Both the position numbers and the translations under genes were made by a program. Shown here piece after piece: positions 36,876-38,332 of a stretch of 64,000 nucleotides of DNA (the stretch's first letter is position 1; the number at the start of each line of letters is the position of its first letter). The stretch comes from Thermodesulfobacterium geofontis OPF15 (lineage in GTDB: Bacteria; Desulfobacterota; Thermodesulfobacteria; Thermodesulfobacteriales; Thermodesulfobacteriaceae). The stretch covers positions 1,178,001-1,242,000 of the forward strand of contig NC_015682.1 of the NCBI RefSeq assembly GCF_000215975.1. The letters run 5' to 3'. The notes beneath the pieces are model-generated. The model had not been told where the DNA came from, made no database searches, and saw only the letters and a program-made list of their open reading frames with translations.

Positions 36876-37244
36876 ATGGAAAGAAAAATTGACTTTTTAA
36901 TAGAAATTGACTCTTTAATAAAGAAATTACAGCAAAAAGGGCAGAGCATTAGTTATAGTAATAATTTAAAAAACCTTGCAAAAGCCATAAATGACTTAGG
37001 TTTTAGACTTCTTGAGCAAACTCGTCTTGGAAACAAAGATAATGTCTATTACATGCTTTTAAGATGCTTCCATGCTAATAAACAAGAGTTTCCAACTGAG
37101 CTTGTAGAAGCTTTTAAACCAGAAAACGAAAAGTATTTCAAAACCCTTATCTTCTCTTTTTTAGCCCCAATTTTAGGTAGAGAAGATAAAGAAGCCCAAA
37201 AATCACAGGAAACAGAAGCAGAAACTGAAGGAGGTGAAGCATGA
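36876..37244 (+). CDS. Small helical protein between cas8 and cas7; Cas11-like candidate
   Basis: 122 residues, predicted all alpha through residue 105 and then an acidic, low-complexity tail. RBS GGGAGG is formed over the end of cas8, and its stop overlaps the cas7 start by 4 bases. I do not recognise it by sequence. The position, size and helical nature fit a separately encoded small subunit (Cas11), which in other type I-B systems is made by internal initiation within cas8. Confidence 0.55.
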
Positions 37245-38332
37245 AGAACATAACCTTAACCATGATTTTTGAAGGGTCAGCCCTAAACAGGGATGAAAAA
37301 ATAGGAGGAAACATCCTCTCCATCAAAAAGCTTCAGGTAGGAGGTAGAACGGTTAGTTTTATCGGAAAAACTGCCTTAAGACATTATTTGTTTACTACGC
37401 TTCACCGGGCATTTAGATGGAAAGAAACAAAGGTGACAGCAGGAGGAGAAGTTGTTCAGTTTGATATTACCCAAGAAGACATTTTGACTTCTCCGGAACT
37501 TGATGCCTTTGGATATATGTATACTATCGGAAACCAGATGTCAATTACAAGAAAAGCTCCTGTAGGAATTACAAAAGCGGTTGCCTTAACAGAGTGAAAT
37601 GGAGACATGGCTTTTTATTGCAACCACGATTTAGTAAATAGAGCAATAAACCAGGGGGAAAATGCTTTTCCTAATCCTTTTAGCAAAGAAGAGCATTTAT
37701 CTCTTTATAAGGTAAGTCTTACGATTGATGCTGAAAGATTGGGAAAGGACGAGTGGATATTTCCTAAAAAAGTTGAAAAGAACAGAAAAATCTATGTAAG
37801 AGAACTTGTTGAATATGGTAATAAAATTGAAGTAAAGGAAAAATCATCAGATAGTCGAGAAGAAAAAATCATATTTGAACATACTTTTCCAGAAAATATT
37901 TCTGACCTAAAGAGTAAAGGGAAATTAGTTATTGTGAACGATGAAAAGAAAATAGAGTTTGAGTTTATCCTTCCTTTAGAGGAGAAAAGAAAAAGAATAA
38001 AAGACCTTTTAACAGCTATTAAAGACGGTTTATACGCTCAATCTTCGGGCGAAGCAAACACGATAGTTCCTTTATTCATGATAGCAGCTCCTGTTAAGGT
38101 TCCCTCGCCAATTTTTCACCCTTTTATTCAATTAGAAGAAATAGAAAAAGGAAAAATTTTTAGAGTTTTAGGAATTTCTGATTGTCTTAAAAACAGTTGG
38201 CTTGATGGAAAAGTGTTTATAATGGAAAGTGAAAGAATAAAATGTGAAATCAAAGAAGACCAAAAATCAAACGTAACTAACGATTGGGATGAATTTCTTA
38301 AGGAGTGTTGGATAAATAATGAAAGTTCTTAA
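37241..38332 (+). pseudogene. cas7: cas7 (Cst2/DevR) interrupted by in-frame TGA
   Basis: The backbone subunit of Cascade. The ORF 37241-37597 encodes 118 residues ([19 protein letters not shown] ... [15 protein letters not shown]), then a TGA at 37595-37597. The same frame resumes at once with NGD and an ATG at 37607, [19 protein letters not shown], and runs to 38332. Together they give a normal 363-residue Cst2-type Cas7. A single G-to-A change in a Trp codon would explain the stop. No ribosome site at proper spacing precedes the 37607 ATG, but restart 9 bases after a stop is possible. Could be a true nonsense mutation, a functional split, read-through, or a sequence error. Confidence 0.85.

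Follow-up and report, generated by a model that had tools for sequence, protein, structure and literature searches.

A type I-B locus with an in-frame stop in cas7

The genome of Thermodesulfobacterium geofontis OPF15 consists of one contig of 1,634,377 bases. The window analysed here, a stretch of 64,000 nucleotides, carries a type I-B CRISPR-Cas locus and its array at positions 35069–47129. The genes lie in the order cas6–cas8b–cas11b–cas7–cas5b–cas3–cas4–cas1b–cas2 and are followed by the array (Table 1). Assignment to type I-B rests on cas8b, cas7 (Cst2/DevR, scored across the stop described below), cas5b, cas3, cas6, cas1b/2/4 and the linked array. Gene content and order are like those of Cst2/TNEAP-type type I-B systems, whereas here the effector backbone gene contains a stop, so that not all effector genes are open: cas7 has a TGA at codon 119. 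The remaining genes had been predicted to be intact, and cas6, cas8b, cas11, cas5, cas3, cas4, cas1 and cas2 are indeed open frames that match their families. The prediction of a 54-spacer array with near-perfect repeats also agrees with our analysis, in which 54 of the 55 repeats are identical and the final repeat is degenerate.

Table 1. Features of the type I-B locus and array, in window coordinates
Feature	Position	Strand	Remarks
cas6 (crRNA endonuclease)	35069–35800	+	Open frame; TIGR01877, 103 bits; ATG at 35069 picked by eye
cas8b (large subunit)	35803–36873	+	Open frame; PADLOC PDLC01204 Cas8b, 363 bits
cas11b (separately encoded small subunit)	36876–37244	+	Open frame; PADLOC PDLC01190 Cas11b, 108 bits
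cas7, 5' part	37241–37594	+	118 codons ahead of the stop
In-frame TGA	37595–37597	+	TGG (Trp) in L004, L007 and L008
cas7, 3' part	37598–38332	+	Same frame, 244 codons, without further lesion; in-frame ATG at 37607
cas5b	38319–39152	+	Open frame; TIGR01895, 129 bits
cas3 (HD nuclease and helicase)	39154–41682	+	Open frame; TIGR01587, 230 bits; TIGR01596, 83 bits
cas4	41675–42184	+	Open frame; TIGR00372, 95 bits
cas1b	42181–43155	+	Open frame; TIGR03641, 450 bits
cas2	43157–43438	+	Open frame; TIGR01573, 39 bits
CRISPR array	43572–47129	+	55 repeats, 54 spacers (53 distinct)

Several smaller features of the locus were also seen. Spacer 9 of the array is the same as spacer 25. Cas11b is encoded by its own gene and is not an internal product of cas8b, as is likewise the case in three relatives discussed below (L002, L003 and L004). 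Just 3' of the array, a short minus-strand ORF (48345–48836) appears by eye to be a truncated IS256-type transposase.

The cas7 (cst2) frame is interrupted by a single TGA, 118 codons after its ATG at 37241. Beyond the TGA the same frame goes on with AAT GGA GAC ATG GCT TTT TAT and stays open to the stop ending at 38332. Read through, the product has 363 residues and matches TIGR02585 (Cas7/Cst2/DevR) over residues 7–306 at 180 bits, where the cut-off is 72.75, as well as PF01905. These matches span the TGA and confirm the original prediction, which had placed it in conserved Cst2 sequence with the frame continuing. Because conserved family sequence flanks the stop on both sides, two chance ORFs are ruled out. 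This is the sole PF01905-family Cas7 in the genome, and the cell therefore has no PF01905-type spare copy. An AlphaFold2 model of the read-through protein, built from a five-sequence input, had a mean pLDDT of 31 and is given no weight.

The codon at the stop in relatives

Among the relatives found, the closest is a Candidatus Calescibacterium contig (L004), in which the surrounding residues are the same but the site itself reads TGG. TGG is also found in a relative of the same family (L007) and in one of the same genus (L008), and the close relatives L002, L003 and L005 have TAT. The alignment of Cst2 homologues that had been proposed as a check thus finds Trp (L004, L007 and L008) or Tyr (L002, L003 and L005) in place of the stop, and upholds the earlier view of TGG as the simpler ancestor. 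In a wider alignment no sequence has Cys in this column, and the nearer relatives have mainly W, Y or F; the L007 row of that alignment is a wrong ORF, and the L007 residue given here is taken from separate comparisons. Profile alignment, through weak matches, places Tyr at the site in the type I-B Cas7 of 8fcj and 8h67, and a phmmer search of the PDB returned no match for Cas7.

Since L004, L007 and L008 carry TGG, the stop is most simply read as a single G-to-A substitution that would have converted a Trp codon to TGA. A sense codon at the site and an open frame in relatives are what is expected of a nonsense pseudogene. None of the 26 other DevR-family matches, from 24 other genomes in a survey of 395 genomes of the phylum, has an in-frame stop. 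A functional recoding signal should recur among such relatives, and a conserved recoding site is therefore rejected, the stop being seen in one genome only.

In L004, there is no match to cas5, cas3, cas4, cas1 or cas2 within 6 kb 3' of cas7 (L004 7530–13512), and the system of this relative may therefore also be incomplete or rearranged.

Readthrough, restart, sequencing error and selenocysteine

UGA is a leaky stop at which Trp is inserted in E. coli and Salmonella, and frequent readthrough has been proposed for in-frame stops that interrupt otherwise conserved genes of prokaryotes (PMC7918605). Near-cognate tRNA-Trp (CCA) might rarely insert Trp at the cas7 TGA, which would yield small amounts of normal Cas7 and weak interference. 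The ancestral Trp residue and the unbroken frame 3' of the stop would suit such leakage, but it is an unlikely explanation, and no feature that would enhance it was found. The sole tRNA-Trp has a CCA anticodon, a 5-bp anticodon stem and G24. A 4-bp anticodon stem raises UGA reading by tRNA-Trp (PMC13092985); having neither that stem nor the Hirsh change (G24A), nor a UCA anticodon, the tRNA lacks the known UGA-reading features, and no altered or suppressor tRNA-Trp was found. No suppressor is present among the tRNA genes found, in which the only UCA anticodon belongs to tRNA-Sec. Furthermore, RF2 is intact and no stable hairpin lies 3' of the cas7 stop. Elsewhere in the window TGA acts as an ordinary terminator, ending 6 of 52 genes, with a further in-frame stop 1–21 codons on. 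Each type I-B complex requires several copies of Cas7 for its backbone, so low leakage would sharply cut activity. The published readthrough candidates (PMC7918605) likewise have one in-frame TGA in an otherwise conserved frame; however, they were argued from a stop conserved in orthologues, whereas the cas7 stop occurs in one genome and is absent from the relatives sampled. That the TGA serves as a dose switch, with basal decoding by tRNA-Trp yielding wild-type Cas7 in a small share of translation events and so maintaining a low-activity I-B system beside type III-A as the main defence, is very unlikely.

Alternatively, Cas7 could be made as two chains that associate, the second arising by reinitiation at ATG 37607. 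This ATG lies 9 nt past the TGA and is preceded by GGAG, with anti-SD pairing of about −6.4 kcal/mol. The gap between GGAG and ATG is 2 nt, however, compared with about 5–8 nt for cas7, cas11 and cas8, and is too close for efficiency. The same ATG and GGAG are already present in the whole gene of L004, so no element has been gained for restart. Moreover, the break takes out a conserved aromatic position within the family domain, and no relative is split at the site. We therefore consider a two-part Cas7 decidedly improbable. Readthrough and restart had both been offered as options in the original prediction, and neither gained positive evidence here.

A sequencing or assembly error would need to affect only one base in one genome, but the site is neither a homopolymer nor a repeat. 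The finished OPF15 genome was covered about 3,741x by Illumina and 37x by 454 reads (PMC3624685), which makes such an error very unlikely.

Insertion of selenocysteine can be practically dismissed. As the earlier mention of selenium-associated genes implied, the cell is competent for it, with tRNA-Sec, SelB and a formate dehydrogenase gene of the Sec type (fdhA) that also has an in-frame TGA, and this gene served as a control. Starting at the TGA, a 45-nt stretch folds at −13.6 kcal/mol in fdhA but at −2.7 kcal/mol in cas7, the latter weaker than 61% of operon windows, in keeping with the prediction that no SECIS-like hairpin follows the stop. Rfam matches near the stop are at chance level only, and relatives have Trp or Tyr at the site, with mainly aromatic residues in close relatives and Cys in none. 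On the strength of the hairpin control, selenocysteine at the cas7 TGA was rejected. The fdhA gene itself (L067; G000:C1:499468–502491) encodes the formate dehydrogenase alpha subunit and, given its single in-frame TGA followed by a strong hairpin, is a probable selenoprotein gene; a paralogue without the TGA lies at 1446173–1449196.

Probable loss of type I-B Cascade and the remaining defence

Together, the codons of relatives, the fdhA hairpin control and the lack of stops in the 26 other DevR-family matches support the original prediction of a recent loss of Cascade, and we consider recent, ordinary nonsense inactivation through cas7 the likely reading. A G-to-A change at the Trp codon for residue 119 would end translation after 118 of about 363 residues, and the Cas7 backbone of type I-B Cascade would therefore not be produced at a useful level. 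DNA interference from the locus would then be lost or nearly so. Cas6 and Cas1/Cas2/Cas4 are still encoded, and immunity may be carried by a separate, intact type III-A system. Because the frame, the operon and the array are otherwise undecayed, the change appears to be recent. NG86 dN/dS, calculated against L004, comes to about 0.07 for the part ahead of the stop and to about 0.09 for the part behind it, rough values given the high dS; similar low ratios on both sides are as expected for a gene constrained until recently. The ratios and the intact rest of the frame fit a recent mutation, and fit residual function as well: continued production of some full-length Cas7 under selection would likewise keep the remaining frame and operon intact.

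In this type strain, nonsense inactivation of cas7 would call for reading the I-B locus as probably not active in interference, even though its array and other cas genes appear complete. The strain would offer a clean case of a just-inactivated Cascade alongside an intact type III-A system. As ordinary gene loss and not new decoding, the stop would have no bearing on the genetic code.

The type III-A locus, located roughly 60 kb upstream of the window (G000:C1:1104849–1118448; L053 4849–18448), is complete and provides the cell with another defence. Its genes are csm1–5, cas6, csx1, cas1 and cas2, and its array has 42 repeats. The 41 spacers of this array include only 29 distinct ones, and a 300-nt block is exactly duplicated 517 nt apart. 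Two further ORFs lie between csx1 and cas1 (L053 12983–13905): the first, of 225 aa, has no NCBIfam match, and the second, of 86 aa, is Cas2-like by eye and is extra to the recognised cas2 (L053 14812–15057).

Broken cas genes have been described in Ligilactobacillus salivarius, where cas3, cas9 and csm5 are split and self-targeting spacers were found and proposed as the explanation (PMC11288051). Those loci resemble the present one in that a single cas gene is broken while the array and other genes are apparently intact. They differ in the lesion, which in OPF15 is one nonsense codon in a type I-B cas7, and in the spacers. No spacer has a target in the host genome outside the array, the best matches having at least 11 mismatches over the whole spacer, and self-targeting as the driver of inactivation is therefore without support. 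The first 802 nt of the concatenated spacers matched no phage record.

The window holds a second broken gene. A GAF/HD-GYP-like gene on the minus strand (10069–11665) has an in-frame TAA at 11234–11236, within the GAF domain, which indicates that nonsense mutations occur in this genome. Together with the complete type III-A system, this second in-frame stop makes ordinary gene loss the more likely origin of the cas7 TGA. Near 10735, ahead of its HD-GYP part, the GAF/HD-GYP-like gene also appears to be frameshifted, at a run of AGA trinucleotides.
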